Source: Rhodocollybia butyracea
Taxonomy: Eukaryota; Basidiomycota; Agaricomycetes; Agaricales; Omphalotaceae
Assembly (NCBI GenBank): GCA_015501585.1
Contig: JADNRY010000132.1
Span: 62,001-126,000, forward strand
Length of the DNA: 64,000 nucleotides
Direction of reading: 5' to 3'
Numbering within the stretch: the stretch's first letter is position 1; the number at the start of each line of letters is the position of its first letter. Both the position numbers and the translations under genes were made by a program. Positions 24,155 through 64,000 of this stretch are shown here, one piece after another. Below the pieces are notes generated by a model. The model did no database searches and was not told where the DNA came from. It was given only the letters and a program-made list of their open reading frames with translations.

Positions 24155-24534
24155 AGAGTCACCATGGGCGGGGTGTTTTTCCATTGCTGGAAAAAGACTG
24201 TGAAAAGGGGTGGGAATAATTTCCTTTCACCAAGAGTTTCCATTTTGGGAAATGTTTATTATCCACTTTGTAATTTTTTCTTGTAATTTTTCTCTTTCCC
24301 ATTTGAGATTAGGCCAAAAAACCAGTTCCGATCATCTCCTGATTTCTTTTACAGCTGAGAAAATGACATAATCTCAAATGGGAAAGAGGTAAATTAAAAT
24401 GAACTAATTACAAAGGGGATAAAAGATATTTCTTATCAAGGAAATTTGTTGTGAAAGATCAAAAATCCACCAGCTTTTCCCAGACATTTTCCTGAAAAGG
24501 AAAGATACCCTGGGCCATGGTGAGTACCACCTTA
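24155..24534. mobile_element. Second foldback element nested in LTR relic, about 380 bp
   Basis: The ends read CACCATGG inward from both sides, and the centre has CCCATTTGAGATTA facing its exact complement across about 50 bases. Complementarity of the two arms is imperfect. The LTR homology resumes directly to the right. Confidence 0.65.
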
Positions 24535-25105
24535 TGGTCCATGCTAGCCTTGGCACATGATTTATAATATTTGGGTTATCTTCAGCAACACAGTACTGAG
24601 TCTTAGTCAAATTTGCTAGTCAACTCCGTCAGACAGTATCTCTGCTTTGTTCTGGACCGTGACTTCAGAATATCTTGAGTCCCTTGTAGATCATAAGATC
24701 TGTAGTATTTGTGAACTAGCTATTTCTAAAGTACAAGGTTTGCCTTCCCTCTTTTGAATATATCCCTGGGTGGTGCGTCCACTAGCTCTTATCCCACTTT
24801 GAGATGTCCCTTTTGTTAGAGTGATAAACTCCTGAGTAGAAACTAGGTTGACTAGCCTAGTGTTAACATCTCTAGACACCTCAAGTATTCCCACTGACTT
24901 CGCTTCCAACTACGCTTGTAGGTGTACTGTAACGGCTAGCTAAGTATTATTGTTAAGATACTAAGCTTCTGCAACAACTAATAACTATCACACTTGGGCT
25001 CCATATAGTTCTCTTATTGCATTGTATATACTACACAATGTGTCAAAAAGTATAGTTACACACTGATACGCCCCGAGACTTTTTGAGTCTAAAACTAGAC
25101 TTAAA

Positions 25106-41585: not shown

Positions 41586-43478
41586 TATACATATATTGAT
41601 GGGTAGGTCAGAACAGACAAACAACTGCTGAATTGTAATGAATACCTATAAGAATGCAGCAGAGCCTGACCCTATGTCATGGGAGGCAACAGAAGTATGG
41701 CTCTAGCTAGCCTCTCACCGAGCTGCTTGAGAAAGCTTTGAGAGGAGGCAGATCAGCGGCAATGGGTAGCCTGTCATTTAAGTATATGCAATGTTGAACA
41801 TCTGAGTCACAATCAACTTGTACCAGATACGACGCCAGGTCAAAGGATTTGAAACAAGAGGAGAACCTTTTGCACAACTTGAAGAGCACAGCATAGTTCA
41901 ACATTCTCCAAGAATGTATCTATTAGCTGTCCAGGTGTGTATTGCAGGCCAGTGTTCCTGCTTCATAAACGTTAAAATTATCAACTTCAGGGATATTCTC
42001 TGCATGCTGTCCAAGAAGACAATACTGAACTTGTCGCTCAGCTTTCTCTTGCAGCAGATTCTTGCAATGGTTTGAGGGTGTATTCTCCTTTGGACGATTC
42101 CTCATTTGTAGGATCAGATGTGTTTGGAGATTCATCATTTTGAATCTCCTCTTTGACTATAGGAGGAGATTCTATCTCCTCTTGTTCATCCTCTTCTTGG
42201 ATGACATACATACAGGGTTGTCCGTATTGTTCACAAGTAGGGTCATTTGCAAAATGTCCTGGTTTGCCACATCCGTAGCAGAGTTTTCTGGTGCTTGTGT
42301 CACCAGATGGTTTAGGTTTTGAACTCTTGGAGTTTGTTACCTGTCCTGTGCTTCTGAGTGTATTCTCAGTGTGCACTGGTTTTGCTTTATAATTGGAGAA
42401 ACAATGTTTCACCAGTTGAAATGGTTGTCTTTGACAATCACTGGACCAGTTTTATATGGTCCTGTACTACCACTTGGTTGTACCTTTGATTCACGGTGTA
42501 TTCACTTAGTGAGGTATTTCAAATCTTTGATACCTGGTTTCTTACGTGAAGTCACATAGTACTAGTCTTTGAGATGATGATTGTCCTCGAGTCTAGTCAC
42601 TGCTTTGACCAATGTTCTGAGTTTAGCATACTCCGGAACAATGCCCTGGTTTGCTAAATGCTTTAGCACCGTAATGGGTAACCCATTAATGAATTGGTCT
42701 TGCATAGCAGCTGGATTAGGAGGCCGTTGCATCCTTGCTGCCCATCTTATGAGGGTGGCATTATAATCTTGTACGCCTTGAGCAGGCAAGTATGTTACTT
42801 GTTCAAACTGCTGAGCAGCTTGATGTATAGTAGATGCTTATACACATCTATCAAAGATTCCTATTATGGTATCTTCAAATTTCCAGGATACTGTGATCCT
42901 GTGTGGTCCATCAACTTCATTGTTGTACCAGTCATGGGCTTTGTCCTTGAGGAACAGCCCAATACTTGGAGGCATGTTTTATTGTGGTCATTACCACAAT
43001 AGCAGTTTACTGCCATCCATCTGAGGAGGGTGGATAACCACCTCTCGAATATTTCTACGTCTGGCGTACCATCGTACGTATCAGGCAAAGGGATCTTTAT
43101 GTCCTTAGATCCGTCGATATTTGCGACGGGTTTTCCCACCGCATGAAGTATCATACGTCGATACACTCTGTGTACCTGGTGTTTCCATTGGGCACAATGT
43201 TTGTTGTCCCCAGTATTCTCTCACAGTTTGGCTGCAAGTTTTTGTCGCAGCTTACGCTGTTGCAATTTACTGAGATTTGTTTGGGGTTGAATTATATAAT
43301 TCACCCAGGAATTGTTAGATGAGGAGTCAGTATCTGACTCTTTGTTGTTATCATCTGATGATTCATCAGACCAAGGTGTACTTTTATGCTTTTTGTCTCT
43401 ATTGCTAGAGTCAGAACTGTCAGAGTTATCATCAGGATCTCCAGGTGTGCTGGAGGCATACCTAACTCTGCCACCCTT

Positions 43479-43841
43479 CATCAGGAAAAGCCATTTTTAC
43501 CTAGGTGACCTCAGAGTGGCCTAAGGAAAACTAGGTGATCTATGAATCCTATGGCATCCTAGGAATTTAGGCTTGTGCCTTGTCAGTCAAGGCTCTTGAG
43601 GATTCCCTAGGGTATCCTAGGAAACCCCAGCGAAGCTCCAGGACAGCTCTGGGAAGACCTGGGCAAGCCTGGGCAAACCTAGGCTTGCCCTGGGTTTGCC
43701 TAGGATACCCTAGGGAGTCCTCAAGAGCCTTAACTGACAAGGCACAAGCCCAAATTCCTAGGATCCCATAGGATCCATAGGTCACCTAGTTTTCCTTAGG
43801 CCACTCTGAGGTCACCTAGGCAAAAACGGCTTTTCCTGATG
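43479..43841. mobile_element. Foldback element family F1, copy 3 (363 bp)
   Basis: Ends CATCAGGAAAAGCC and complement, flanked by TT on both sides. The arms are nearly fully complementary. It interrupts the gag relic. Confidence 0.9.
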
Positions 43842-44171
43842 TTATAGGGTTGCGACAATTGTTCTTTATGAGAGGCAGTATCACTATACTCCCTGTCCCA
43901 GACTTCTCATGGAGTAGTCAGTTTGTCAAGGGGAATGCCATCACCATTGAATCCTACCATTGGTCAGGAAATGCAACCGGTATTGTACCGGTTGTTCTGA
44001 GACTGTAGTTGTGTTGTCTCTGAATTGCTACACAACTCTCCCAATTGCTCACTATCCCATTTGGGAGCGGCATACTAGGCAATCTTATTGCCGTCAGTAC
44101 AGGGTTCTCCTGTACTTCAATTATTTGTGGTACTGTTGTTGGTACTACAGGTTGTGGTATCGTTGCTGATA

Positions 44172-44427
44172 CTGTACTCGTATGTATGGAGGCAACGGTC
44201 ATGGTCATGGAGGCCTTGTTGCGTTGCCAGAATACCGTGATGTCACAGCAAATTTTGGCCTGGTTGCTAGTTCAGGACTGTGACATGCAAAGAATCTATG
44301 AAATTTTTCAAAAAATCCCAGGTTCTGGGTGCCAGTTTTCGCCCATGTCATGGTCAAAACTGGGCTCGTTGCTACATCAGCACCGTGACAGATCACGTGA
44401 CGGTTGCCTCCATACATATGAGTACAG
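44172..44427. mobile_element. MITE family M2, copy 2 (256 bp), inverted
   Basis: Flanked by TA, inverted relative to 41331-41585, inside the gag relic. Confidence 0.9.
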
Positions 44428-45989
44428 TACTACATTTTGTGGTGTTGGTAGTACTACTTGCTGTGGTACTATATTTTGTGTTACTACTGGTGGGATCACC
44501 ATAGTAATTGGCTCTTTCTTTATAGGAGCCTTCAGTTTAGCAGGTGCATTTTGTACTTGCTGTGTAACAGTTACTGGAGGTAATTTTTGTTGCGCTGTTG
44601 GTACTACTGTATGTAATACCATTGTGCTCGGACTCGGACCAGGTCCTTGCATGTTTTGACAAGCGACTTGTGTCATTGTCTGTGTTGGCACCATGCGTGC
44701 CATTACCAGTGTTTGTGGCACTATTGTTTTCATTTGTATTCCTTGTATAGGAATACTAACATCAACTAATCATTGATTTTTAAAATAATGTTCATTCAAT
44801 TCTTGAATGAATGTTTCGTGAGCTTTAATGAGGGACTCATTTTTTAATGGTCCCACTATTGTTGAACCAATCCATTGGATTGGGTCATTCATCTGTCTAC
44901 TAATCATAGGGGGAATAGGTAATGATCCTGGTCCTCTTGGGGCTGGAGACATTCTTCCTGTGAAGAGGTTCTGCCTCATTACTGGAGAGTAACAAAGCGG
45001 TATGGGTTCAATTGATTTACCCATTATCAATTTTGAAACATCAATAGCTGGAGATTCATTTGCATGAACTTCCGTATTTGGCGTATTGTTCACTCAGGCT
45101 TTTTGAATTTTCCTGAGCGTTACAAAGTCACCAAAGTTGTTATAGGGATTGCTTTGGCAATCCCCTGTTTCTACAACCTCATTTTCGGGGTTGTCAAATA
45201 GAACTTCACCCTCAGGTGGTTCTACCAGATCGAATGAATCTGTATGCCACATGTTATGTGTTGGCCTAAAGGACTCTTTAGGTCTCCGTTCTTGGGCATC
45301 TGGTGGTTCATATAGTCCCATCGTTTGATGGAACAAGTGAGTGGTAGGCTTTATGCCTCCCCAACGACTTGTTTGTTTGTTATCAGGTGGTATATCCGCC
45401 TGTAATACTGCCGGCGTTACTGCTGGCGGTTGTGCTATGGGCATTGCAATGCTTGTAATGTTACCAGGAGCTGGTAACAGTCTGGATTTAGTCGTTCCAG
45501 CTGGTCTGGACCAACATTCTACTGTGGTAGCTATACGGTTTAGTGCTTGTGCACCTTGCCCATAGAACTGTGATAGTTCTTGCATGGCCTCCTTGAGGTC
45601 GTTGTTGACTTGTAGTAGTCACTGTAGTTGTCGTCACAGAGTCTGGAATGGAAGTAAGCAAAATTTTGATAGCAGAGGGTAAATGGCCTATGGCCATGGC
45701 AACTGCAAATAACTTGGATATTGGTGTGAGATGTTACTAATGGATAAGCGAAACAGTGAGGCATTGCAAAGACCAGGGCTTACTTTCATCCCAATCAATA
45801 CAAGTGCATACTCTTTGAGGCATAAGATCTTGGATACAAATGAAGATTAATTTTGAGTAGGCGCTTGTGATGTATGTTGGAAATGCCGGATTTATTGCAG
45901 GGACAACTGGGAAATTATTTCTAGCGGCAGGGGTTGTAGCCAAGCAGGTATCACTGAGGTTAGGTTAAAAGCATTAGGCATCCAGACCT

Positions 45990-46343
45990 GTGGTTGTTGC
46001 CCTGCCTGAAATTTTCTCTAACAAACCGAAAATCTTCCTTGACCTTCCACAAAAAATGTCTCCTAAGCCTGCTTTCCAAGGTTTCCGTGTGGAATTCCTG
46101 ATGAAAGAGTTGGAAAGATACCACACTAGCAACCAAGTGGAAGACTGGGAGAGCTTTATTCTCCAAGCTACTCATCAATTGTTGAAGCACGCGCCACCTA
46201 GTCTGGACAAGAAAGAGGAGCCCTCAGCTGAGAGTCTGGCCAAGGTGAATGATGATATACCGGATCGAGAGGAGCCACTTCTGGAGCCTGGTGATGTGGG
46301 GTATGAAGACGCAATGAGAAAACATCAGGAGGAGGGTGCGTGA
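45990..46343 (+). pseudogene. N-terminal exon of an expanded agaricomycete protein family
   Basis: A frame with AFQGFRVEFLMKELERY and an acidic stretch up to AMRKHQ resembles the start of large mushroom proteins of unknown function often linked to transposons. No following exon is found before 46826. Recognition is from general pattern memory only. Confidence 0.3.
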
Positions 46344-46825
46344 AAGAAGGCACTTGTTGCCATACATGTTGCTTGTGTTTGTTTGGTTGAGCGCGTGACT
46401 CAGTTTGCTTCAGAAAATTTGTCGATGGCTTAACTATCACGGCAAGACCGCTAAAAATTTGTCCTGAGTGCTGAGGGTATGCTGACCAAAGGTGTGGCCA
46501 TGAAGGCACAACTACTCAAGGGTATGCTGTTCAAAAGTGTGAAATATTCAAATAGGTCCCTGTGTTTACAAAGTGTTGGCGCACATATAAGGTCAGCACG
46601 CTAATCTGGGCCCAGCACACAAAATCATGACATTGTTGGCACACAAAAATTGTGGTACTCAAAAAGTCATTACACAGCTCTGGTTAGTCATGAAACTTAC
46701 CATATTTGGTAAGTTCTAGTCTTGACTTAACCATATGATTGCTTGATTTGGCTTAATCTGGCTGTATTGCTTCAAAGTATTAGTAGATTATGAGTGAGCA
46801 ATGCAGTCACATGAAATAACACAGC

Positions 46826-46937
46826 CACAGGATGAGGTCAGACCGCTTTGACCAGTTAAAATAAGTAAATCATATCAGACTGATATGATATGATGGACTT
46901 GTTTGGGCTGGTCAAAGCAGTCTGACCTCATCCTGTG
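46826..46937. mobile_element. Small foldback at the 5' edge of the Ty3-type element
   Basis: Thirty-base arms 46826-46855 and 46908-46937 match at 29 of 30 positions, enclosing a second ATCATATCAG palindrome. It lies where the 5' leader and LTR of the downstream element would be expected. Confidence 0.8.
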
Positions 46938-46959
46938 ACCAGCACCACCAGGTAACGGA

Positions 46960-49021
46960 ATGAGCCTCTTCGGCGGAGTATTCCATCTGACACCGGAGCA
47001 GTTGCTACTATTTAATTCTAAGGATCTACCCAAGGTCTCAAAGACTGCACCTATCTTTGATAAAGATGTACCATCTGGACTACCAGGATGGATCAAAGAT
47101 ATACAATGATTAATGGCAGCGGCTGGAATCAATGATGAAGCTGTGAAGGTTGCTAAAGCACTTGAATACATGAGCCACGCAACGCGAGAAGCGTACAAGG
47201 GTCTTGATTCGGTAGCCGTGAATCCTAATTTAGATCAGCTAATCAGAGATCTCTGCAACATTTATTTGGAATCAGCAGGCAGCGAGCTAGGTTCTCGCCA
47301 GGAGTTAGAACAAATTGTGAAAAGAAACACTCCTATTGATATTGGCAATCTCCAGAAGATCTTGGTGTATAACCGAGACTTTAAGGTACAAGCCGACAAA
47401 TTAATGAAGCCGCCTGCGATTTTATCAAACATCGAAGCAGTCAGAGTGTATATTATACCTATGACATGCCGACTAGTCGATGCAATTTATGCTAGATTGA
47501 GGATTGATGTCACTCCAGCAGAGCTAGCTGTGAGGTGACGAGAAGATCCATATGATTTGTCTAAGTTAATGGAAGCAGCTGGAAGTCTAGAGCTTGGAAG
47601 CCTTGAAACGTTTTACGGCAAAGGCAACAATCCTGACGGACCTTTAGAGGTACCGTACTCAGCGGAAACATATAGTAGAGGGTCAATGGCATTCCCATTC
47701 GCTCCTCAGATATATCCACCAGCAGCACCTACCGTTACACAAGTAAAAAAATGGAAACTAAAGATGAACAGTTCAATCAGATCATGGCTACTATGGCTGC
47801 GATCAAAGATACTATTACAATCAACAAGAAAGAGTTGGATTCAGTTCTGGATTTGCATCATAAGACTATCTCTAGTCTGATGCAAACTCTGAAGAATCCT
47901 CCAGAGTCAGCTAGTGCTGCTCCTAGAGTAAGCTATGCTGGTACTCATAGCCAATGCAATAATAAGGTACCTGACTGGGGTCAAGGTTGTTTCATGTGCG
48001 GGTCACTAGAACATCGTATGTCTGACTGTCAATTCTTCAATTCCTATAAGGATAAAGGATGGTTAGTTCCAGACACAACTCCGGGATCTAAGAAATATAC
48101 CTTGAGAGACGGTTCGCCGTTACCTAGGACTAGTCCTGACGAATCACGACCCGAAAGGATCGCTCGTATTGCTAAGCAGAAAGGATGGGATAAAGGAGGG
48201 ACAAATGCCTTCTTCGTTGAAGAAGAAGATATACTCGATACCGCTCCTGAACAAAGTCCACATTACTCGATGTTCTTGTCATTCGCAAAGATCTTAGAGG
48301 AGCATGAAGCTAACCTCAGACAGAGAGGTCAGAAGAATGGCTTGTCGGAGTCGGGAAACTAGTTGCTTCGGGAATGACGGGTAGAATCACTAGAGCTAGT
48401 CCTCTAGGCATGCAGGCAGATTCGAAAATACCCTCTTCATCGAAGGAACCGGTTCAAAAGGTAGGGCCTCCGGCGAGAGGCACTCCAAGGCAACAGTCTG
48501 GGGTGATCACCCTACCAAAGGAAAGTCCTGCTACAAAAACAAAGTTTAAACAGGTTGAAGTTGTGTTACCTATTAGAAAGAATGGGCTAGCTAAGTCAAC
48601 GGAACAGTCAACGAAGGAAGAGAGACCACCGGAACCCCGTGAGGCACCGAAGGCCGCATCTGTAACTTCTGGAGATGACTTGGACGAGAAGTTACTACGA
48701 GAAATCGCAGAACTTCAAGGGAATACTCCCGAGATCCAACCTAAACCTAAGCAAAGACCATTTGATTCATACAATGTAGAACCGATGCCTATAAATTTAC
48801 CACTACCAGAGGAAACTGTGAAGGCTAGCACTGTAAAGGACCCTTTTGCATCGGAATCTGGACCTAAATATCAAATTCAAAATGGCTTTAGTCGATCTGG
48901 GATTGATGAGAACGTGGCGAAGAAGCTATTCAATGCTGAGGTTACCCTCACATCAGAAGAACTTCTAGCACTAGGTCTGAATCTCCAGAAAATCTTGGCT
49001 AGAAAAGCTAGAAACGTTTGA
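46960..49021 (+). pseudogene. Gag of the Ty3-type element
   Basis: Starts MSLFGGVFHLTPEQL. Helical capsid-like region to about 47740, then a zinc knuckle CFMCGSLEHRMSDC (CX2CX4HX4C) near 47993. Stops at 47107 (TGA), 47536 (TGA) and 49019 (TGA) and frame changes at A runs near 47746 and 48355 break it. Confidence 0.75.
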
Positions 49022-49096
49022 GTTGCGCCAACCAAGAGGAAAGCGGCTTACATTAGTACGCTACTCGAAGATGGTACTGAAATACCCGAAGGACCT

Positions 49097-52000
49097 GTGG
49101 ATACTCAGCTAGCTAGCTATATTCTTTTGGATGACATTAGTCTCCAGGATAAAGAAGTATTCGAGATACTAGAAGAGGACCAAGGCAAAATTCGAGCCGG
49201 TTCCGTAGGAAGATCTAGCAGTCTCAAGTGCATCAAAACTAGGGTCAATAATCATGAAGAGATGACTGAAGCAATCCTCAACAGTGGCTGTCAAATTGTT
49301 GCGATTGATCAACAAGTAGCCGTCGACTTGGATATTGTTTGGGATCCCTCCGTGACGATCAGGTTACAAGATGTACACGGCAGACTAGAAGAAACTGCTG
49401 GGCTAGCCCGCAATGTTCCATTCCTAATTGGGGATATTACTATTTACTTACAACTCCATGTACAAAAAGCCGCACCGTTTGAGATACTAATTGGTAGACC
49501 TTTCGATGTGTTGACTGAATCAGTCATTAAGAATCACTCGAATGGAAACCAGGAGGTCACTATAATGGATCCTAATACAGGACACCAGTGTACTATGGGG
49601 ACATATGTAAGATCCAATCGTAGAAGACTCCGATTCGATGGTGCCAATTCTAATCCAAGACTGGTACCAGAAGTTCCTGCTCACGTCAAGGAAGAGGCTG
49701 AGGGAAATTTTTCAGCCTTGACGATCTGACTAGCAAACAGGGAGAGGTAGAATTGGCTATGAGTTTTCATTTTGACGAGAATGATGAAGTTGTTTGTGAT
49801 GGGTATACTACCGCGAAGTCAGGGATATTTTCGGAACAAGAATTAAGTGAAGCGTATATTATGGCCTCTCGTGAATCTATAATGAAGGACTATCCCAAAG
49901 ACGGAAGGACTATTGATGCCTATCTATCGCGTTCTGTAATTGATGAAAATAAACATGTGTTTAGTTCTTGGCGAGAAGGTCTGGATCAATCTGAAGATGA
50001 GGGACCGGAAAAAGTCTCAATAGATGACTTACCACCTTTACCAGAGGGAGCTAGCGCATTTGCAGGCTTCAAACACAAGCCTGGGACCAACAAACGACAT
50101 ACTAAATTGAGGTTTAAGGTTGATAAAGAGAACATACCCCTATCTGAACCGAAAGGGGCAAGTAATCAGTCGGCTAGCGAACTAAATCAACGGCAGAAAC
50201 GCAAAGTAAAATTTAATAAATACCTTAGGACAGCTGAAGACAAGGACAAGTCAAGGCCGTTAAAACCTAGGAGACAGACAACTGTTAAGAATCCTAAGGA
50301 AAACGAGCTTTATGACGTATTCCGGGTCTACGGTGCCAGAAAATATAAACCAGTCGGTGTAAAAGTACGACCTGTCAAAGCTGATTTGCCTGAAGACTTT
50401 AGGATTAAAAGGAATATCATTGGTGATCCGCTAGCCGGTATGCCAGAATTACCCTTTCATCCCCCAGAGTTTACACCGGGCTAGCGCTATACACAGGAAT
50501 GGAAAGAAATCATTGATGCCAATCATGCCGAGGATTTCTTATGGGACAAGGAACGAAAGCTCTTACACCATCTTATGAAGATACAGGAGGATGGATTCGC
50601 TTGGACAGCTGCTGAAGCAGGCACGTTTAAAGAAGAATTCTTCCCTGTGGTTAAAATACCTGTAATAGAACATGAGCTGTGGGTAGAGCGAAATATTCCA
50701 ATTCCACCAGGGATTTTCAAAGATGTTTGTAAAATCATCAAGGAAAAGATTGATGCAGGAGTATACGAGCCTAGTAGCTTGTCCTACAGATCTAAGTGGT
50801 TTTGTGTAGTAAAGAAAGACGGTAAAAGTCTAAGGCTAGTCCACAGTTTGGAGCCTCTGAATAAAGTTACGATACAACATTTGGGTATACCTCCAGCTAC
50901 TGCTGATATAGCAAGGGATTTTTGTAGTAGAGCCTGCGGAGCAACGTTAGATCTCTATGTCGGATACAATGAGAGACCGCTAGCCGTCTCCTTGCACGAC
51001 CTTACAACTTTCCAGACACCGTTTGGACCTCACAGATTGGTTAAATTACCAATGGGATGGACTAACTCCATTCCAATCTTTCACGACAATGTAACTTACA
51101 TACTGAAAGATGAAATACCACATGTTACCATACCTTATGTTGATGATGTCCCAGTAAAAGGGCCACCAACCAGGTACGAGCTAGCTGATGGAGGGTATGA
51201 AACTATACCTGAAAATCCAAAAATCAGACGCTTCGTTTGGGAACACTTGCAGAACGTAAACAGGGTAGTACAAAGGATGAAATATGCCGGTGGTACCTTC
51301 TCTGGAAAGAAAGTGTTTATTTGTTGCTCTGAGACTATAGTTGTAGGTCACCGCTGCACATACAAAGGTAGACTGCCCGAGGATAGAATTGCTGATGTAG
51401 TTCTCACTTGGCCGGAATGCAAAGACAAAAGTGATGTGCGAGCCTTCTTAGGAACAGCTGGACAACTTCTTTGTATGTTCATTCAGAACTATGCAAAGAA
51501 AGCCATGCCTCTTACAAAGCTGACTAGCAATATGGATTGGGAATAGGGTGATGATCAACGGAGAGCTATGGAGGAGATAAAAGAAGGAATTTGTAAAGCT
51601 CCTGCCTTAAGAACTCTCAATTACAAGTGGGATGTTGGGCTAGCCGTAGATACCTCATACAAAGCTGTAGGGTGGTTTATTTATCAAATCGATCAAAATG
51701 ACCCCGGTAAGAAGTACTACAATTACTTTGGGTCTACTACTTTAAATGATAGGGAAGCTAGGTTCTCCCAAGCAAAACGGGAACTCTTTGGACTCAAGCT
51801 AGCCCTTCAATCAAGTTATTATTTAATTTATGGTTCACGACAAATGACAGTTGAGACAGACGCTAGCTATATAAAAGGAATGTTGGATCATCCCAGCTGC
51901 GGTCCTAATGCAACTATCAATTGTTGGATTGAGGAAATTCGCAAATTCCACTTCGGAATTTTGCATGTGAAAGGGATTTTACATGGACCGGACGGACTAT

Positions 52001-53923
52001 CTTGAAGACCTCCGGCGGATACGAAACCCCAAGACCTCCTATAGACCCTGACGACTACGACAATTACAACAAAGGAGCTCCCATAGAGCTAGTCATGGGT
52101 GAAGGAGCCAAAGAACCATTAGATTTTGAGTCATTTAAACATGACATTGACCCACAAAGTGGATTCCTCACTGAGCTAGCCGACTCTCCAGAAGACATTC
52201 AGGACAAGCTTCAGGTAGAATTAGATTGGGAAAGAGTATGGGCAGATAGCCGCGAACAGCACTCACATAGTCACTCAGAAACTCTAAGTTTGTTTCATCA
52301 ATCTCTGCATATACCAGAGGAATTGAAGGAGTGGAGAAAGGACAACCCTTATCCGCGAGCTCGCCGATTGAACTACGGAAATACACTGGATGACTTATTA
52401 CCCCTAATCACTAAGTGGCATTCAAGTAAAAACCCGACTAGCATCACAGCGGGGATGACTGCAGTTGAAACTCGGACATTTATACGGCACGCTAAGAAAT
52501 TCTTTGTGAATGAGAAAGGCAAGCTTTATAGACGAGTGATGGACAATGAAGGTCAACACTGGCTAGTCATATATCCTGAGCATAGGATGTACATGTTGCA
52601 TTGCGCACATGACAGTTTAGCTCATAAAGGTACTTTCGCTACTCGCGAATTTATTGAAAGATGTTTTTGGTGGCCTGAAATTGAGGGTGATGTACAGTGG
52701 TATGTAGGATCTTGTGTTCCCTGCCAGAATCGTTAACTTAAACTCTTAAGGACTCCACCAGTCTTAACGCATACACCATCATTGTTCCAAAAAGTGCATG
52801 TAGATACAATTAACATGTCCCCGGACAGTAACAGGTATAAATATATTGTACATGCTAGAGATTCTTTGTCAAGTTGGTCCAAAGCCAGAGCCTTACCGCA
52901 AGAAAACGCGCGAGCTCTGGGTGAATGGTTCTTCAATGATATTATTTGTTGTTGGGGATGTCTGGAGGAAGTTGTAACAGACAATGCTCCCGTGATGATT
53001 GCCATGTTGGATTGGCTAGCCGAGAAGTATGGCATTAGAGGAATAAGGGTTTCACCCTACAACTCACAAGGCAATGGAAAGATAGAGCGAGCTCACTTCG
53101 ACATCCGTCAAGCTCTTGTAAAAGCAATGGCGGTGATATTAAGAAGTGGTTCTACTTCCTAAAGCATGTTTTATGGGCAGATCGAGTAACAGCTAGAAGA
53201 GGTTTTGGCTGCTTGCCATACTTCTTAGTAACCGGTGCGGAACCTCTATTACCCTTTGATATTGTTGAGTCGACTTGGCTAGTCAACCCGCCAAGCCAAA
53301 TTCTAACACACGAAGAGTTACTGGGTTACCGTGCTCAAGCACTGTCTAAACACCGGACCTTCGTAGCAGCAATGCGCAAGCGAGTCTTGGAAAATAAGCA
53401 TAGAGAATTAAGGGAATTTGAAAAGAAATATTGGCATACTATTTTTGACTATGATTTCAAACCGGGATCGCTAGTCCAGGTTAGGAACACATCTATTGCA
53501 AAGAGTCTTGACCGAAAGATGTATCCTTGGTATAAGGGACCCATGGTGGTCATCCGTCGTACTAGGGGAGGATCATACATCATCGCAGAGATGGATGGTA
53601 CAGTACTCAAGAGTAAGGTAGGAGCCTTCAGAGTACTACCACACCGCTCGCGGTATGAACCTATCGAATTACCTGAAAATATCCACGACTTAATAGATCT
53701 ATCAAAAGAACAGTTGGATCATATGGTTAATGAGAATGAAGACAATGAGGAAGTCCAGAGAATTAGAAAAGGGGGAGACCCCATCTTTGATCGAATTCCT
53801 AATCTCCGCGTCCCTGAATCAGGCAAGGAAGTGGTTTATAGCCCTGACAAGCCAGCATCAGATGAGGAGACAAGCGATGAGGAGGAAGAAGAATTGGACA
53901 ACACTCCTTATGTCCATACTTGA
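49097..53923 (+). pseudogene. Pol of the Ty3-type element: PR-RT-RH-IN
   Basis: The protease region has ILNSGCQIVAI, where Asn replaces the catalytic Asp. RT shows VHSLEPLN, LVKLPMGWTNS and the TIPYVDDVP active site. RNase H shows VDTSYKAVGW, VETDASYIKG and VKGILHGPDGLS. Integrase has an HHCC zinc domain (HCAHDSLAHKG ... SCVPC) and the DDE residues in VHVDTIN, VVTDNAPV and GNGKIERAH. Stops at 49727, 50482, 51544, 52003 and 52734 and frameshifts near 52015 and 53133 inactivate it. Every stop can arise by one C:G to T:A change. Confidence 0.85.
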
Positions 53924-54272
53924 GCCATGAGAAAAGCTGACTTCAAGAAAGATGAGGTAGTCACCGCCATGTACGGTCGGCTAGCTCACTGGAAGTAATG
54001 ATAGGTTAAGCTTAGCAAGTCCCTCGGATGAATCATTGACGTAGATTTATTTGCACAAGGGCACATACACCTTCAAACCAATAAATAAGTTACAAAAGAG
54101 TGACGAGCGGTTGAAGAATGTAATTTTAGAGTATAGGTGCCGGGGCTCAGAGGCCGCCAGACAAATGAGACATTACTAACTGTAAGGACAGTGGGCTAGC
54201 GGACTAGTTTTGACTGAGATAAGGGTCAGGACAGGTACCGAGGTCAATGTGTATGCGGACTTACGACGTTGT
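53924..54272. other. Spacer between pol and antisense gene B
   Basis: CTAG-rich noncoding sequence where the two convergent units meet. Confidence 0.4.
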
Positions 54273-56108
54273 TTACTCCAAGCCTGCGCGCATGGATGAA
54301 TAACACATTTGGCAGGTGGATCCTTTAAGACCACAACCTACACAACCGGGCTTGCCCGAGATCTGTGGAACTAGTTAGACTGGGCTAGTCATAAACCCCA
54401 GACTTAAAAATTGTATTAGATGTGGAGACATACCTTTTCTTCCTTGTCGACATCCATAGGCAGAGGATCGTCGTAATGAGCAAGAACATTGGCGAGTTCA
54501 TCGGCGACTTTCTTGCCATTGTTAGCGCAAGTCCAATACAACTGGGTCTTGGCTAGATTACCGCAATACTCGTCTCGGTGGATATTGAGCAGGGTGTTCA
54601 ACATAGTGTCCGTCATGAACGAAAAGTCAAGCTCGCCAAATTTTCCGGTCAAAGACTGAAGAAAGATTTGGAACTGGATGCTTTCGCGATTAGCGCGGCT
54701 CACTACAGATTGTTGACCAGGCTGAATGACTCTGTTAGGGCAAAAAATATGTTGAGAAGTACCTGCATCCTCAGGGGTGAAATCAATGGGTTCAGCTTGA
54801 ACCTTTTGTTGCTTACCAACACTAGCAGGAATGGCAATAGGTTCATTGGATAATGGAAGGTTGACCTCGGGATCTGGGACTAGCTTAATAGAAGCCATTC
54901 GACTACCTGGAGGCTTGCCTTTGGAAGGAATGTCTTTGATATCAGGAATAGCGTCGTTGACTTGAGCTATAATGATCTGTTCCTAGAGGAATATTAAGAA
55001 AGTGTAGGATTAGGGAGAGCTAGCTGACTCACAAGTGCTTTGCGCTTAATAGCCTTGGCGGAATTACGAGTCTTCTTGTTCCTCTTACTGCGAGTCTTGC
55101 ATACAGAGCCTCCTTCATCTTTGCTATCAGGAATGACCTCTGCAGACTAGAATGTATACGAGATTAGTTTCATCTCATGAATCTTGTAAATAGAAGAGTA
55201 TACCGTATCCGCGAGCTAAGTCACTTGCGATTAGTTTCATCTCACAAATCGCAATAAGACTTACGGGATCGGCCATCTATAAGACATTTGAGATTAGTTT
55301 CATCTCACGAATCACAAATGGGAGGTCACTTGCCTCTTTGTCATCTTCAATGGCGATCGGAGCTGTCTTAGCAGACTTACTGGGTTGGCTAGCCGTCTTG
55401 GCAGCTGTACTGGACTTCTTGCTGGGTGCGCTAGCAGGCGCAGAATCTCCTGAAACATGTTTAAAGATTAGCTTCCTGAGCACAGCTTCCTTTGCAGCAT
55501 AGTCCGTATTCTCGGGCTGAGTCGCACCATTGTCGACCGAAGGAGCTGAGATTGTTCAGCTAGCATACTAAATATTTTACACTGGTTGTCTTACCAGTAG
55601 GAGTGTTCACGAGCCTAGCTGCCTCGGCCTCCTGAACACTAGTTAGGAAGTATATGAGGGTGCGTGATTTTGCGCTTGCCTGAAGTTGCCTAAGAGAAGC
55701 TATGAAGTGGTGAATACGTATATCGTCCTCGGACCACCGTCCACGGATGGTAGCGTGCGCAAGGCAAGCCTTGTTGAGGGCTAGCTGAGCTTCTTTGAGT
55801 TGGTCGACGTTTTTGGGGACCTTCAGAATCTGGGACTTTTTGAGAGGCTTGGTCTGGGAATCCGTTAGTGGTGTGTTTGAAAGCTGGGAGTACAAATAAC
55901 TTATGAGTTGATCAACATGGCCAGCGGTGGACTCAGCTAGCTTACTGAGGAACTCGCCAGTGGGGTGCCCGTCGACCTGAGCAAGTCGGAACTGAGCCGT
56001 CGCGCTCAGTACTTGTTCAGTGGTGACCTTGAGAGTGTTGAAGAACGTCTCCATGTAGTTCTTTTCTTTAGGAAGAATAGTGGAAGGATTGCTCTGAGGA
56101 GTAGTCAT
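54273..56108 (-). CDS. Antisense gene B of the retroelement: unknown zinc-motif protein, 500 aa
   Basis: Seven exons on the minus strand: 56108-55595, 55545-55334, 55276-55265, 55215-55204, 55146-55033, 54982-54434 and 54362-54273. All junctions keep frame; intron 2 uses a GC donor. The N-terminal ~170 residues are helical (LYSQLSNTPLT, SEDDIRIHHFIASL). A Lys/Ser/Ala-rich linker follows, then a helical C-terminal part and a final CVGCGLKGSTCQMC motif (CX2CX6CX2C), likely zinc-binding. No family recognised. It has no stop or frameshift although the neighbouring gag-pol on the other strand is wrecked. The start lies about 110 bases from a polypurine-tract-like motif. The start ATG is the first in frame after GGCCGTACTATC. 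Confidence 0.7.
55147..55333 (-). repeat. Three tandem intron copies separated by 12-nt exons (gene B)
   Basis: Introns 55333-55277, 55264-55216 and 55203-55147 share the core TGAGATGAAACTAATC, including a good branch-site match ACTAAT. The mini-exons between them (55276-55265, 55215-55204) code MADP and LADT. Repeat periods are 69 and 61 bases. Confidence 0.8.
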
Positions 56109-57090
56109 GATAGTACGGCCTAAGAAGGTAAAGAACAGTCCAGTTATGGGACTAGCCTTTATACTTCGCTGGATGAACATCTTTTAACCGGCTAGCCAAC
56201 TGAGGACAGTTGAGATTTTAGTTAGGGGGAGGGATAACCAGTATAGGTGAATACTTAGAGGAATGTTACGATAATTTTGCGAATTTATAGACTTATGATT
56301 GGCCACAGAGAAATTACGACGTAGGAACGACGGAATAACTCTAAAAACATGACTAGCTGACGAATCCCAAAGAAGGGAAGATTAATACAGCATAAAAGTA
56401 GTCGGCTAGCCGTATCAGAATAGCCTAAATTTGTCAAAATCAAAAATCAGGGCATTTCCCGACTAAGCTAGCCAACTAGCTTGGCTAAGTCTGACCATCG
56501 TCGACTCAGCTAGCTCACGCACTTAGTTCAGTCTTGTGGACTGTAAGCCCCTCTCAGTTTAAAATTTTTAAATCTATCACAACTAATAAAGGCTTACACC
56601 TTGACTTAGGATAGTTTAATTTATTAATCATAAACTTATTATGCCTAGGACAAGGCTAGCGCTTTGACTTGGGATATATCTTACTATAACTAAGCTTAAA
56701 GCTCTCAGAAAACTTAAAGTCACACAAATAAGAATATATACAAGGTGACCTGAAGGTCTTTTGATTGAGCAAAAGTAACTATATACATACGAGTACTTTA
56801 AGTTTGCTCTACTTAAAGTACTACTGAAAGTTTGAGAGTCTCATAAAGAGACGATGAGATACTACCCCCTCGGTTGGGGGAGACAGAATTTTAAAATCTA
56901 CTCTAGAGGGATCTGTAAACCTAAAGAGAGTAAGAAAAGCCCGATTGGGCACGCGGCGAGATAAAGAAAACAAAAATTTTAAAGTCCGTAGACTATAACG
57001 CAAGATGGGGCCCGCCACCAGTGAAATGGTAGTCTTGGCAGGGATAACTGCTGCAACCTTTCACTGAGAACCCTCCGCCCCATCCGGTAC
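56109..57090. other. CTAG-rich spacer with a polypurine-tract-like motif and LTR-like start
   Basis: TTTTAGTTAGGGGGAG at about 56216-56231 repeats the motif in front of the LTR at 60.3 kb, with related sequence before it. About 30 bases on, TGTTACGATAATTTTGCG resembles the first bases after the second motif. This may be a decayed LTR of a related element. No gene. Confidence 0.45.
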
Positions 57091-59835
57091 TCAATCCGCG
57101 GCGCCAGGAGCTACGGAGTCAACAACCATCGCTGAGGACTCCACGGGAGCTGCTACAGTGCTAGCAGAGGGAGTCTCGGAAGGGGGAACCGGAGTCACCG
57201 AGCAAGCCTTGTCAACAACTGATGCATAGGTGATACTCTCGAGGAACGTCCGGAACTCCTCCTCAGTGTCCCAAGCAATAGGCAACTGCCAACCCAACAA
57301 GCTACACAAAAAGGAAAACTCTGGAAGAGTAATCCTTTTATCAGGCTGAAGAGGCACCATAGACTCGAGGAAGACCAAAGGGTCGGAACACACTTGACCG
57401 AGTTCGACGGACTCCACGGCGAAAGCTTCGTTGAGATGGTCCAAGGTCTTGAAGGTCTCGTTGAGAATGACCATGGACTGGTCGTAAGCAACATGAAGGC
57501 CAGACATGACCCGCAGTTGACATTGGAGGTCTATAAAATCATTGTAAATAACTTTAAAAAGAGGTTAAAATAAAAAAAAGACTTACTATCAGGAGCAGTC
57601 TTCCCAGCTTCATAGATGCGATTCAAGTGCCTGAGTAGCTCGGGTAACTCCATAGAGTCGGGACAGGACTGGTGCCCGGTACCACAATGCTTGCAGCGTG
57701 CACCGAACTTGAGCTTACCCAACGGAGTCTTCGCGTACTCACACAAGTCGGGAATGTCCCGGATATTACAAACCAAACATTCGATCTCTTGAGGACAATC
57801 GCCCAGCTTAAGAGATCATTAATATTGAAGGAGACAGAAGACGAAAGAAGGAGACTTACCGGTTGCATTCCCCGGTTGATACCCATCATATCGGACATTG
57901 TGTACACCGTATCACCTTGTTGAAGGAGTATAGTCTGGCCAAGCTTCTGCATTGAGGGGTCTGGGGCCCAGCTTGGGCCGTCCTTGAACACGACGTTTGC
58001 CTCCTAAAATAAACATTAGAATAAGAATAGTAGGAAGAAACTACAAAAACATACCTGCTTCAAGTTCTTGTGATTCTGCCGCGTAGGAAGGGCATCGCAA
58101 ATCGAGGGAACACCAGTAAAACCAGGAGCTCGCTCAAAGCTGATGATAACCTTGCGGTAGTGGTCAGGATCCACGCGCTCCCCGTCGTTGGCCTCATCTA
58201 TTTGGTTGAAATCAACCAGCTCGCGGAACATACGGTCCAACAGAGCGTGGTTGGGAACGTCATGCTGAGAAATGAGAACAACCTCGCGGTCGGGATTGAC
58301 TAACAAACGGGGGTATTGCGAAAGCCCCATATGCTTAGTCAAGGATCTGCTAGCTTGACCCGAGGACTTAGAAGTACTGGCTGGCTTAGCAGCGACGGTT
58401 GGGACTTCAATGGTTAACTCATCCTCCTCAGACTCGGGAGGAGTGAACTATAGAATTGTAAACTTAATTAGGAAGAAGAACATGATGAGCTAGCCACGTA
58501 CCAAGTCTTCTGCATCACCGACAGGGACTCTACCTTCCAACTTAACGGTAATCTTAGGTTTGGGGCGCGGTACTGGGAGCAACAACGAAGACTTGGGCTT
58601 CTTGGACGGAGCAGACTTCTTCGAGCTCTTGGCGGCCTTCTGTGCCCGAGAACGGCGAGTTCGTCGTGAGGGAACGAAAGGACGGTCCTTCATATCCTAA
58701 AATATGTATATTAGCTTAAATCCTAAAGAAAAGTGGAGGAAAAAGGAATGTACCTGCGAACAAAGACATTTACTCGGAGGCTCTTCCTCGAGCTCGTCCT
58801 CGTCACTTCCCTCCTCCTTGTCCAGCTCATGTGTGGAAGGAGCTTTCTCCAGCACAAGCGCGGAAGAAAGCAAGCGCTTTCGAGGAATCACCACCTGCGG
58901 GACCACAGAAGGGACTGATGACACTGAGGATTTGACCTTGCCAGAAGAAGAAGGAACCGCCAATAAGGCGTCCATCTCATCCTGGAATGACGGAACCGCA
59001 GGAGTCAGCAGAGCACTTTGCTGATCAACAAACTTGTCTTCCTCCTGAGCGGCGGCTAAAGCCTCAGCGCGGGCCACGAGCCAGGCCGACTCACGGCAAG
59101 CAGTATCGAAAGGAATAGTGAGACAGAAATTAGGCATAATACGATGTTGTTTGGCAGCGGTCTGAAGACCCAGTCAGCGAGATGTCTTAAAATTATAAGA
59201 CAAGAAATATGTACCAAGATTTTGTCTACGTCATCCTCTGGAAGAAACCAGGGAGGAGTAGCAGCCTTGGGAGAAATGGTGGAAGAAGCGCGTTGACAAA
59301 AAGCAACCAGACACTCGACAACCAAGGATCCGGTTTGTCGACGAATGTATTGTTGGCTAAGGAACCCCTGTGAGTCAAAGCCTCGGAATCAGAAAATGCG
59401 TGAAATATATCATAGAAATTTAAAGAAACGCACCAGGAGGATTTTCAACAAGGATAGGCCCAACCTTATAAGTGACGAGAAATCTTGCGTTTGGAATTTT
59501 GAATGGTCATCTTGACCTTTGGCTAAGACGGCGCCCAAACTCGACTGAACGACGCGAGTGGCAGTCCAGATCATACGCGCGGATACGCCGGGATGAATAG
59601 TCAGGGAGGAGTTGAGTGCACCAAAGCGATATATAAAGAAGAACGAGTCCTCCTGTGAAACACCAGGGTTTTCGAACTTAGCCTTGAGTGGCTCAACGAG
59701 CTCGAAAAATGATGGTTTGCTTGACGGAAAGTCGCCGAGCTCCTTCAGGGACGTCTCCAAGCTGGTAATATGGCTATATTTGTTAAGGAGCGACTTGTCG
59801 TAGAGCGAAGGATGAGAAGACCGAGTTGAGTCCAT
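57091..59835 (-). CDS. Antisense gene A of the retroelement: cysteine-cluster protein, 784 aa
   Basis: Eight exons on the minus strand: 59835-59434, 59367-59215, 59161-58754, 58696-58502, 58447-58055, 58003-57860, 57806-57587 and 57530-57091. All seven introns are GT-AG and all junctions keep frame. The ATG has a strong context (CTGCCATGG). Regions: helical N-terminus, acidic Ser-rich stretch (EEGSDEDELEEE), a basic Lys/Arg block like a nuclear signal (SRRTRRSRAQKAAK), a conserved-looking block with HVPNHALLDRMF-like sequence, a cysteine cluster CLVC-x8-C ... CKHCGTGHQSC, and a helical C-terminus. The cluster recalls cysteine motifs in mushroom transposon-linked proteins; DNA binding is a guess. 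CTAG is rare here, unlike in gene B and pol. Confidence 0.7.
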
Positions 59836-60265
59836 GGCAGGGGGAAAGAAAGAGAATGAAGGCAAGTTGAAATTTTCAACACACCTTATAAATCACCCTC
59901 GAGGCGGTGACCATCGTAAAGCTTGGTTGCGATAGAACATTTGTAATTCTATCACATAGGTGAAAAGAGGAATCACAAAGTACAAGTTGAGAAGCTTTAA
60001 TCACTATAATACGTTATGTTATTTAAATCAAGATCTCACGGTTTGATCTGATTCGGGAGTGTAAGCGCTCGGCGGAAATAACCGAGAGCTCACTAAAAGT
60101 TAGACGCTGGGAACTACTGAGTGACTTAAGCGCCGAATAACGGCAAAGTTGGACTTAGAAAAGTTTCGGATGCCCGCAGTGGGCTAGCTTATTCAAAGTA
60201 CCAATTGCCACAATAAAAGGGATTGCTAGCCAGTCAAGCCCAACTAGCCGAATGACCGGGGACGG

Positions 60266-60290
60266 TCAGATCTTTAGTTAGGGGGAGATA
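60266..60290 (+). promoter_or_regulatory. Putative polypurine tract before the 3' LTR
   Basis: CTTTAGTTAGGGGGAGATAA ends the noncoding stretch after gene A's 5' end and directly precedes the repeated LTR sequence, as expected for plus-strand priming of a Ty3-type element. Confidence 0.6.
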
Positions 60291-61403
60291 ATACGCAATT
60301 TTCGCGCCTAGGCGTGTATTTGTACTTTTTGACTAACTGTACAACATATACAATGCAATAAGAGAACTATACGGAGCCCAAGTGTGATAGTTGTAGCAGA
60401 AGCTTAGTATCTTAACAATAATACTTAGCTAGCCGTTACGATACGCCTACAAGCGTAGTCGGAAGCCAAGCTAGCGGGGATACTTGAGGTGCCCAGAAAC
60501 GTTAACACTAGGCTAGTCGACCTAGTTCTACTCAGGAGTTACCATGCTCACAAAAGGGACGTCTCAAAGTGGGATAAGAGCTAGCGGACGCACCACCCGG
60601 GGATATATTCTAAGAGGGAAGGCAAACCTCGTACTTTGAATCGGCTAGCTTACCAGAATACTGTAGATCTGACAATCCGCAAGGGAATCAAGATAATCCA
60701 AGTTCATGGACCGGAACAAAGCAGGGATACCATCCGATGTAGTCGACTAGCAAATTTGACTGAGACTCGGTACCGTGTCGCTAAAGATACGCCGAATATT
60801 ATAAATCACATGCCAAGACTAGCACAGACCGTAGAGGAGATATACCGGTACACAGAAGTGCACCACCTCCCAAGAGATTATAGAACGTCAGCCGAAGGTA
60901 CTCTACGAGGAAATACACTTATAGATACTAGGCTAGCCGACTCAACTTACATGATATTAGTGTCGTTAGAAAGCTAGCGCACAGGGCTAACTGTTCCGAA
61001 TGCTTCCCCTTGATGGAGAAGCACTAAGAGCTAGCCGACTACATTTTAACATCCTGAGTAAGACAGAGGAAAGCAAGTACGCAAGGTACAAGCACCGCTG
61101 CCTGAAAGATGAACCTGCGGACTGCGGGGCGGATTACCATCTAGGACCAAAGGACTTTAACCATTTTAATATATACAAGTTACTACCTGATTTGGACATG
61201 CGTAGTAGTTTGGACAGTTTTACCATATCCTATATACCCTTTATGGCGACGAGTTTCCTTTCCTAGCCAACTCTCTGTCTCTCTCTCTGTTTCTCTCTCA
61301 TAGTTTGTGTGTTTCGTATCTTTTCGTATTAAACTCATTTCTCTCTATATATAAGCTTAGGGTATTTACCTAGAAATACAAGTTACCCGCCACCTCCTAC
61401 ATA
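60291..61403 (+). mobile_element. LTR of the Ty3-type element (boundaries approximate)
   Basis: Recognised because the same sequence recurs as an antisense relic at 22326-25076. It contains a TATATATAAG box near 61345 followed by sequence that should be R/U5, so the true end may be as far as 62203. Short open frames in it (60636-60977, 61000-61266) are partly conserved in the relic but do not form one protein. Confidence 0.6.
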
Positions 61404-62203
61404 CGAGATTGGTAGTGTTACTTCAATTTTAGAAGTTATTTGCCCCGCGTTATAAGTTAGGGAGTGCAGGCGCCGCCGACTCAGTGACAGCTAGCCACTT
61501 TAATAAGGACAAGTGCTTCGACGATATTCATTGTGCCCACTTTAGTTTTGGTTAGAACTTTAGTGTGTATCCATAACCAGTTTAAATCTAGTTGCTTCCT
61601 TAGAGGGGACGGTTTCTAGTAAGGGATTATTTGTCTCCAGAGTGAGGGTTACTTAGCTAGCTGAAAAGTTAGTGTGGTACGAGTTCCTGGTAATTTGGTA
61701 TTACCTTCAGTTTAGTAGCCTAGCCCAGTGTTTGGTTAGGGACTTTACGGCAATTCGCTAGCTGGTGCCAGAGTTTGCCCAGGAGTGTTTCAAAGCTTTG
61801 TTGTTTGACGACTAGCCAGAGCCAGAGTTTGCTTGGGAGTATTCATACTTCGTTTGTTCACATCCCCACTACGCACACACCTTGTTCACCAACCAACTTA
61901 GAGAGCTAGCTCTGTCAGCAGAGCTTATTTGATATAGTCACCACGCTAGCCCTATACTCCGTACTAGAGTTTGTGTTAGCTAGCGCAGTCCGATCTTATT
62001 GTTATCCCGGAGGAATCTCTGACAACTCAACCTCGCACCTAAATTTGATAGTCTGTCTTAGTGCGGTATTGTTCAGTAGCTGTTACAGTTGTTTTGTAAC
62101 ACATTTCAAAGACCAGTACATACTAGACCAATTATCGGCGAAGGAAGGGGAAAGTCCGGCCACAGTCCTTCCGCAACGGGGAGTGAGAACAATAGCAGAA
62201 CTG
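61404..62203 (+). other. CTAG-rich extension, possible R/U5 of the LTR
   Basis: No gene. CTAG occurs about every 60-80 bases, like the element upstream, and it ends exactly where the next LTR (TGTTATGACCCGG) begins. Confidence 0.4.
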
Positions 62204-62384
62204 TTATGACCCGGATCTAAATCCTATACACCCAATCTTTTTTCTTCTGTAACCAACTATGAACACTATCATTAATACTTCTACTTAACATTTTACATTC
62301 ATTAGTTATTCAACACCATTTGGGTTAATGCTGCACACATTCTTCCAGAACACCAGAATGATCTTTAACAGTCACTGCACAGTC

Positions 62385-62700
62385 TGCACAGTCATGACAT
62401 CATTCTAGCTCCACAACTATGATGTCATCTTGCTACTCCACAATCATGATGTCATTCCATTGCTCCGCAGTTATGATATCACATCACTGCTCCACAGCTA
62501 TGACATCATTGCATAGCCTCTTTACATCAATGACTCAATATCAGTCATTGCACAGCCAGATATCTGAGTCAACTACGGTTCCGCATACATGACTCAATAT
62601 TAGTCATTGCACAGCATTACATAGTCAGACTGACTCATCCGCAGTATTTCCGCAGTTATGACTCAAATCTAGTCATTCCGCAGCATTTCCTAACTAGTAC
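62385..62700 (+). promoter_or_regulatory. Cluster of bZIP-like sites upstream of TATA box
   Basis: Five TGACTCA (or complement) sites between 62531 and 62666, and at least three ATGATGTCAT/ATGACATCAT sites between 62396 and 62510, followed by a TATA box at 62711. TGACTCA is the known Gcn4/AP-1 site; binding here is inferred. Confidence 0.55.
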
Positions 62701-62818
62701 ACATTGCACAGTATATAAGTAGTCTAGATTTACCAATGTACGTTAGACGTATTATTTTTCTTAAATCCAAACCCCCACTTGTTTGCTGTTATCACTTGTG
62801 TGAATCACCAGACCAACT

Positions 62819-63218
62819 CATTGTATCTTGTTGAGCTATCTCCAAGCTACAATACACATTTATACATCTTGTTGAGCTAACTCCGAGTTGTATCCACTAA
62901 CATTCACCTGTTGAGCTATCTCCTAGTGAATACTTCTTTAATTGCCACTTGTTGAGCTATCTCCGAGTTGCAACTTCCTATTACTTGTTGAGCTATCTCC
63001 AAGTATTAGACATTACACTCACTATTACTTGTTGAGCTATCTCCGAGTATTAGACATCACACTCACTACTACTTGTTGAGCTATCTCCAAGTATTAGACA
63101 CCACACTCACTACTACTTGTCGAGCCAACTCCAAGTATTAGTTCTGATTCATATTACTGCTTGTCGAGCCATCTCCGAGGGTAATCTTATTATTATTTGT
63201 CGAGCTATCTCCAAATAA
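62819..63218 (+). repeat. Array of ten stem-loops with conserved loop
   Basis: Ten units share CTTGTTGAGCTATCTCC or close variants, and the flanks of each unit are complementary with different sequence (for example ATTGTA...TACAAT, ATTCAC...GTGAAT, TTATTATTTG...CAAATAATAA). It lies downstream of the TATA box, so it would be in the transcript leader. Confidence 0.85.
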
Positions 63219-63252
63219 TAACTTCTGTGAGTTTTGTATTACAAACTAGTTA

Positions 63253-63684
63253 CTAACTGTACTTGAGCCTAGTTGTTTGAGTATATATTTTTTGCCTAGC
63301 GGTTTCAACGATAGGAAAGGCTTGCTCTATAATCTCATTAATTTCTCTTATCATTTTTACTGCCGAGTTACGTACTGTGAAGGTTTGGATGAGACTATTG
63401 ATCGAGTCATAACAAGAACCACCTGCACTGGGATATTCTTTGACTTTGTATTCCCTGACATCAATACTACCTAGCGCTGCCTCAGTAGAGACAGCCGTAT
63501 TTGGAACAGAATCTGCGGGACCGAAACCACCCAAACCACGTTGGCAAGGATTTCCGGCCGTAGAGACGGAATCGTTGTATGGCACAAACGATTGTGCGTT
63601 GGCCACAAAGGGATTAGGTGTCTCGGTCGGTAGGATCTGAGTCTGTGAAATGTTCCTAGTTCTAGGGGGTTTTTGTGGAGGCAT
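63253..63684 (-). pseudogene. Gag N-terminus of a retrotransposon, truncated
   Basis: Starts MPPQKPPRTRNIS at 63684, just inside the LTR at 63726, and ends with a stop at 63253 close to the LTR junction at 63244. No zinc knuckle or capsid motif is reached. Confidence 0.5.
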
Positions 63685-63725
63685 TTTGTTAGAAACGGCG
63701 TTAACAAGTACAAGTTTAAATATAC

Positions 63726-64000
63726 TGTTAAGATCGTGCAAGACCGGCGGTTCCGGAACGGAACCGAGAGAGGAATGGACTTTGACAAAGAAGTCGTTGG
63801 ACCGGAGCGGAAGCTGGAGGTAGAGTGGGTCGTGCGGTTTAGCTATTAACTAGACCCTCGTCACGCCATGTAGTCCTGAGAGAAGACTGACAGAGTTACG
63901 GCCGAAGAGTAACAAGAAGAGAGAAGGGACTAAGCGGAACTTAGTCGGAACAGAAGGTCTGGTTTATGCAAGTTGATATTTAAACTGAGGTTACTGTACA
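63726..64000 (-). mobile_element. 5' LTR of the truncated element, cut by window end
   Basis: TGTTAAGATCG onward matches the solo LTR at 37867-38155. Given the gag direction, this is the 5' LTR on the minus strand. It continues past the window. Confidence 0.7.

Follow-up and report, generated by a model that had tools for sequence, protein, structure and literature searches.

Genes A and B and the element around them

The 64,000-nucleotide (nt) stretch of Rhodocollybia butyracea DNA analyzed here, called the window throughout, contains a decayed Ty3-type long terminal repeat (LTR) retrotransposon. Two multi-exon genes, A and B, are predicted on the minus strand between its pol region and its 3′ LTR, as an earlier reading of the sequence (the original prediction) had proposed. 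Models obtained by simply chaining reading frames missed true introns and were replaced by homology models, which give 18 exons and 16 introns rather than the 15 exons and 13 introns first counted.

Gene A (54325 to 56108, minus strand) was modeled by spliced alignment with a related copy, C1125, yielding 10 predicted exons and a product of 437 amino acids (aa). Exons 1 to 5 are predicted at 56108-55905, 55853-55680, 55631-55595, 55545-55334, and 55276-55265, and exons 6 to 10 at 55215-55204, 55146-55033, 54982-54763, 54702-54434, and 54384-54325, the last exon being the least certain part of the model. Two of the nine predicted introns are GC-AG in the window, and the first intron has a noncanonical donor both in the window and in the sister copy C555. 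Two mini-exons of only 12 nt (55265 to 55276 and 55204 to 55215, minus strand) are conserved in the C1125 copy. Seven A introns could be placed in C1125, six of them at identical residues, both 12-nt exons included, while the seventh is two residues off within the weakly aligned end. The intron between EDA and V is also present in a second related copy, C818, and three A introns were recognized through the C1125 and C818 copies. Between 55150 and 55317, an intron segment occurs three times in tandem, with the 12-nt exons in between, as if an intron had been duplicated together with its mini-exon.

Gene B (57091 to 59835, minus strand) has 8 predicted exons, 7 introns, and a product of 784 aa. 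Its exons 1 to 4 are predicted at 59835-59434, 59367-59215, 59161-58754, and 58696-58502, and exons 5 to 8 at 58447-58055, 58003-57860, 57806-57587, and 57530-57091. Spliced alignment also placed seven introns in B of the C818 copy, though its aa identity to window B is 38%. The introns at positions 185, 564/565, and 638 agree closely between the two, the one at 638 splitting a codon in both; among the remaining introns, two lie within five residues of each other's positions and two fall in a poorly aligned stretch. Positions 134, 185, 321, and 565 are exact in two more B copies, C18 and C905 (L050 and L051), which are decayed, and position 517 is exact in C905 as well. These two copies are 99.7% identical to each other and 49% identical to window B. 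As diverged copies keep the same intron positions and frames, we consider the structure of A and B to be beyond chance.

Exon 7 of B (57587 to 57806, minus strand) contains conserved Cys and His residues with the core C-x2-C-x3-H-x2-C, in columns that are invariant between the window and C818, and these residues may bind zinc. A protein search with the whole of B gave no match, which looked like absence until a profile search with exon 8 recovered three environmental proteins (P0122 to P0124) that are 80 to 92% identical over this exon. Window B ends ten residues before these relatives. This shortening and the noncanonical first donor of A do not quite fit the proposal that the two genes carry no lesion; as read from their sequences, they are nearly, not perfectly, intact.

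The gag-protease-pol remnant (46942 to 53923, plus strand) was delimited by tblastn with the open reading frames (ORFs) of the C818 copy. Nine in-frame stops were counted in the frames aligned to that open copy, the last one a few codons before the frame end, leaving eight internal stops, the number originally given. The frames are also broken as proposed; compared with the open copy, they change at least three times rather than the four or more times claimed, and the protease Asp said to be lost is missing in the window and kept in the open copy. Matches of the remnant to a gag zinc knuckle and to reverse transcriptase (RT) are both under the Pfam cut-off. Among the 120 listed protein relatives of the window RT, Meripilus and Peniophora are the only named organisms; both are Agaricomycetes, which makes a basidiomycete host likely. 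Two of the four window pol stops that could be tested against C555 are common to both copies. The observed/expected ratio of CpG is 0.68 to 0.88 in the window element versus about 1.0 in the C818 copy, and four differences between window B and P0122 to P0124 in the segment from 57094 to 57528 are replacements of Arg by Cys or His. The Arg replacements and the low CpG ratio are consistent with decay at methylated CpG.

The 3′ LTR (60289 to 62180, plus strand) was identified by its similarity to the LTR of another copy, C919; its start is placed at about 60289, and its right end is approximate, the similarity extending to about 62107. No second LTR copy was found by self-comparison of the segment from 43001 to 64000 plus the next 10 kb. 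From 22344 to 25061, the window also holds a reversed LTR remnant belonging to the same family, broken into pieces that are 74 to 89% identical. Near the 5′ break of the element, a 112-bp inverted repeat was found at 46826 to 46937, whose copy number seems different in C555. About 0.6 kb beyond the 3′ LTR, a tandem array (62817 to 63220) comprises ten repeat units with a spacing of 36 to 44 bp.

Recurrence with pol and coding constraint

The genome surveyed amounts to 95.6 Mb. Its C818 copy (L074) has gag-pol flanked by paired LTRs that are 99.67% identical over 1,833 nt, whereas only the 3′ LTR was found for the window copy. Its three sense ORFs (gag, 794 aa; protease, 496 aa; pol, 1,440 aa) are open, and so are the spliced models of A and B. 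The order of protease, RT, RNase H, and integrase is that of Ty3-type elements; the protease, RNase H, and integrase zinc domains are over the Pfam cut-off, and RT and the integrase core are under it. The three sense ORFs occupy different frames and overlap, which suggests two frameshift steps. The C919 copy is 99.6% identical to C818 over 17.2 kb. Each of the two extends to an end of its contig, which leaves target-site duplications unreadable. Between families with the same layout, the identity of A and B is only about 40%. In C1125, A is 61% identical to window A (66 to 71% in the first half), and the end of B only 37%.

We compared RT matches with the positions of 52 A loci and 47 B loci. 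This was done for 94 of 128 RT rows, each being a match and not a proven independent insertion; many of the 34 rows left out were second fragments of included copies, and others were weak, and the searches for A, B, and RT loci scored best candidates only. Where RT identity was at least 72%, A lay antisense downstream in 33 of the 51 rows compared, on 31 contigs, B was present in 22, and both were present in 21. A was found in that position in 2 of 26 rows at 60 to 69% RT identity and in 2 of 17 rows below 60%. The spacing from RT to A was 2.87 to 2.95 kb in 17 of the 33 rows. At 35 of the 52 A loci, B shares the strand of A and lies upstream of it. The original prediction had named two findings that would refute it, namely, copies of the element without these genes or genes standing alone at a host locus; the check did not refute it, and A and B were found to travel with pol. 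C451 (L075), a relative with 64% RT identity, has neither A nor B in the 7.5 kb on its 3′ side. Minus-strand frames at 4147 to 7435 of L075, read from ORFs, presumably resemble a Plavaka-type DNA transposase.

These data bear on the possibility that A and B are host genes, or a single local insertion beside a dead element. The window locus is degraded, with no 5′ LTR found, the compared rows contain no related RT in the vicinity of some B matches, and C18, C905, and C1353 show no gag-pol match within stretches of 3.3 to 3.6 kb. Nevertheless, 31 contigs repeat this order, strand, and spacing, and the A/B pair of C818 is located between near-identical LTRs. Recurrence with pol refutes this explanation as the main account, and we give it next to no credence.

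Selection on the two genes was assessed from nonsynonymous (dN) and synonymous (dS) divergence. Between the window and C1125, A has a dN of 0.18 and a dS of 0.94, giving an omega (dN/dS) of 0.19 over 266 codons. For B within the C818 family, omega ranged from 0.27 to 0.56 in six comparisons. Seven of 14 loci were used, the other seven being 99.5 to 100% identical to the C818 copy; the seventh locus used, C1238, has saturated dS and is outside the quoted range. Between the window and C555, A and B together have 15 synonymous and 8 nonsynonymous single-change codons, as against 6 and 34, respectively, in the portion of dead pol that was compared (Fisher test, P = 7.9e-5 with multiple-change codons excluded and P = 0.0036 when these were counted as nonsynonymous). 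Because of this contrast, A and B of the window look constrained relative to dead pol. The two genes had been described as looking selected or younger. Their dN/dS values and the C555 contrast favor the first of these options; the second is not supported, A and B being conserved components of the lineage and not inserted late at this locus.

It might be argued that the antisense RNA itself matters, as double-stranded RNA or by interference, and that the reading frames are incidental. Passages of PMC7264820 indicate that antisense transcripts of retroelements may feed silencing. However, the codon-level constraint on both A (0.19) and B (0.27 to 0.56) and the conservation of the 12-nt exons and of the Cys/His residues argue against such an explanation, which appears highly improbable. 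Given their conserved intron positions, their dN/dS values, and their recurrence with pol, we regard A and B as standing, selected parts of the element. That they belong to a Ty3-type LTR retrotransposon lineage as antisense genes with introns, kept under selection, is, in our view, very probable.

Several observations weigh against this conclusion. The splice sites of A and B are predictions. The A frame of C1125 contains a stop, and stops are present in the spliced alignments of 5 of the 14 B loci of the C818 family. The B alignments of C18 and C905 hold four stops each, and they comprise 15 introns each, including other, probably spurious, ones. C555 was considered as an independent transposition and rejected, its 5′ flank being 99% identical to that of the window; judging from this flank, it is the same insertion, as an allele or a local duplicate. 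Its A gene has a stop and deletions (one of 14 nt), some of which are perhaps assembly errors. When all differences between the window and C555 are counted, B alone is near neutral, and its constraint is not clear. Among the 51 RT rows with an identity of 72% or more, 18 had no A within 13 kb, some of these being fragments or near contig ends. Lastly, in the class with 64 to 67% RT identity, the absence of A and B was viewed directly in one copy only, C451; elsewhere in that class, absence means missing matches of fast-evolving proteins among best candidates.

An element-wide motif and candidate functions

The hexamer GCTAGC is strongly enriched from 47101 to 62180, where 48 copies of this palindrome are present in 15.1 kb versus 3.44 expected. 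None was found in the flanks, i.e., in the 4.1 kb before the element (43001 to 47100) or in the 1.8 kb after it (62181 to 64000). The rest of the window has eight more copies, four of them within the reversed LTR remnant. As gag-pol of the window contains 17 copies versus 2.0 ± 1.2 after 300 synonymous shuffles, the excess is not explained by codon use. The C1125 locus has 8 copies versus 0.99 expected. Gag-pol of the C818 family shows no GCTAGC excess (1 versus 0.8). In that family, CCTCG/CGAGG is enriched in gag-pol (46 versus 19.3 ± 4.0), A (11 versus 5.4 ± 2.0), and B (17 versus 9.7 ± 2.6). The palindrome CTCGAG was tried as the motif of this second family and dropped, the nonpalindromic core CCTCG/CGAGG being better supported. 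At eight RT loci of other families, no comparable excess was detected, with a lowest P value of 0.0013 among 64 palindromes.

GCTAGC is sparsest in B (1.1 per kb) and gag-pol (2.5) and densest in the LTR (6.9). Its rarity in B, relative to 2.5 to 6.9 per kb elsewhere in the element, would fit an origin of A and B as genes of a different transposon that was once inserted backwards into an ancestor and then carried along, as would the single orientation of the two-gene cassette and the existence of separate B-only loci. Yet only one weak inverted repeat was found around the pair (22 nt, 77%, with arms in the A-B spacer and in B), neither gene has a Pfam transposase match, and the arrangement is common to families whose A and B proteins are only about 40% identical. 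We consider this origin unlikely.

LTR retrotransposons, which replicate by way of RNA, would be expected to lose introns. In the element described here, sense genomic RNA would be reverse transcribed, and introns on the opposite strand would be invisible to the spliceosome in that RNA. The introns of A and B thus likely persist because sense RNA never presents them to the spliceosome, as suggested by their orientation. Antisense mRNAs for A and B would start near the 3′ LTR before being spliced and translated, and the two proteins might act in the nucleus as element-encoded regulators. They might bind the family motif, GCTAGC or, in the other family, CCTCG/CGAGG, and so keep the element from silencing. 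A is the better candidate as a motif reader because C1125 shares GCTAGC and a 61% identical A with the window, and the end of its B is only 37% identical.

That the A and B proteins are regulators binding the motif of each family is a tentative proposal, and DNA binding is something that we infer. Slightly more doubtful still is the idea that the lineage carries its own anti-silencing system, in which fast-evolving A and B proteins would read the element-wide hexamer, protein and motif changing together between families. Neither protein has a Pfam match above the cut-off, searches of solved structures with A and B gave chance-level matches only, and so did a search of NCBIfam with B. The motif of the second family is weaker, and its core is not palindromic. 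In pieces of 3.3 to 3.7 kb around 12 A/B loci, GCTAGC was the top palindrome at four, two of which belong to C555, and no strong palindrome was found at the other eight. GCTAGC also occurs scattered in coding sequence without tandem arrays, unlike the targets of the VANC proteins discussed below.

A and B might instead serve a particle or transport step, as envelope-like, nuclear import, or packaging proteins, the GCTAGC excess being an unrelated mutation or integration bias. No DNA-binding domain was recognized in A or B, and many retroelement accessory proteins act outside chromatin. The motif excess, however, follows the borders of the element, is of a different kind in each of two families, and remains significant against shuffles that preserve the codons, and we rate this alternative at somewhat less than an even chance. 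Taken as a whole, antisense genes of the element with a putative regulatory role represent, in our opinion, the likely best explanation.

Comparison with known systems

Plant Ty3 elements of the Retand/TAT group (Retand, Grande gene23, and RIRE2) are described in passages of PMC11963269 and PMC7264820 as having antisense ORFs in the region from pol to the 3′ LTR, in agreement with the statement of the original prediction that antisense frames are known in some plant Ty3 elements. As in Retand/TAT, the element of the window is a Ty3 element with a long region between pol and the 3′ LTR that contains conserved antisense genes. Those passages also report family-specific tandem repeats in the plant elements. 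The present lineage differs from them by its fungal host, by its gene pair, with 9 introns predicted in A and 7 in B, and by the lack of TRP28 (PF04195), which Pfam searches did not reveal in the A or B proteins of the two families. The word “intron” is absent from the main text of both papers.

Among fungi, Boty/BcGypsy1 of Botrytis cinerea is presented in parts of PMC7264820 and PMC8365987 as a Ty3 element with an additional antisense gene, brtn. It resembles the present lineage as a fungal Ty3 element with an extra antisense gene, unlike it in that its host is an ascomycete; this comparison is by description only, from those parts. Multi-exon antisense cargo in a basidiomycete element had been thought undescribed. 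This view holds for the intron-rich form within the literature searched, through best-ranked titles and abstract openings with few subscription papers covered, where no LTR retrotransposon with a pair of intron-rich antisense genes was found. Antisense genes as such are known in plant Ty3 elements and in one ascomycete element.

The proposed role of A and B recalls the VANDAL DNA transposons of Arabidopsis, whose VANC anti-silencing proteins evolve fast and whose short family-specific motif is rare outside the element, according to sections of PMC5735166. In keeping with that description, A and B are fast-evolving element-encoded proteins, and a short family-specific motif is enriched in the element, GCTAGC in the window and a different one in the C818 family. 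In contrast, VANDAL is a DNA transposon whose motif, in the same sections, is mainly noncoding and often in tandem repeats, and no motif in noncoding tandem repeats was found in the window element. The likeness between VANC and A/B is one of description, no Pfam entry of any kind matching A or B over the cut-off.

Finally, Penelope elements of bdelloid rotifers move intron-containing genes, and parts of PMC3846280 argue that an antisense template protects the introns. The present element is likewise a retroelement that spreads genes with introns, whereas Penelope, in that account, belongs to another class and moves host genes in trans. Penelope is described there as unlike all other retrotransposon types in moving intron-containing genes, a uniqueness that the present element qualifies. 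A lineage with 16 predicted introns in two selected genes, kept likely just by their backwards orientation, represents a naturally occurring test of how retroelements retain introns. It also offers a way to recognize genes that belong to an element but that annotation would assign to the host, and its element-specific hexamers provide a concrete, testable case for retrotransposon self-recognition outside plants.

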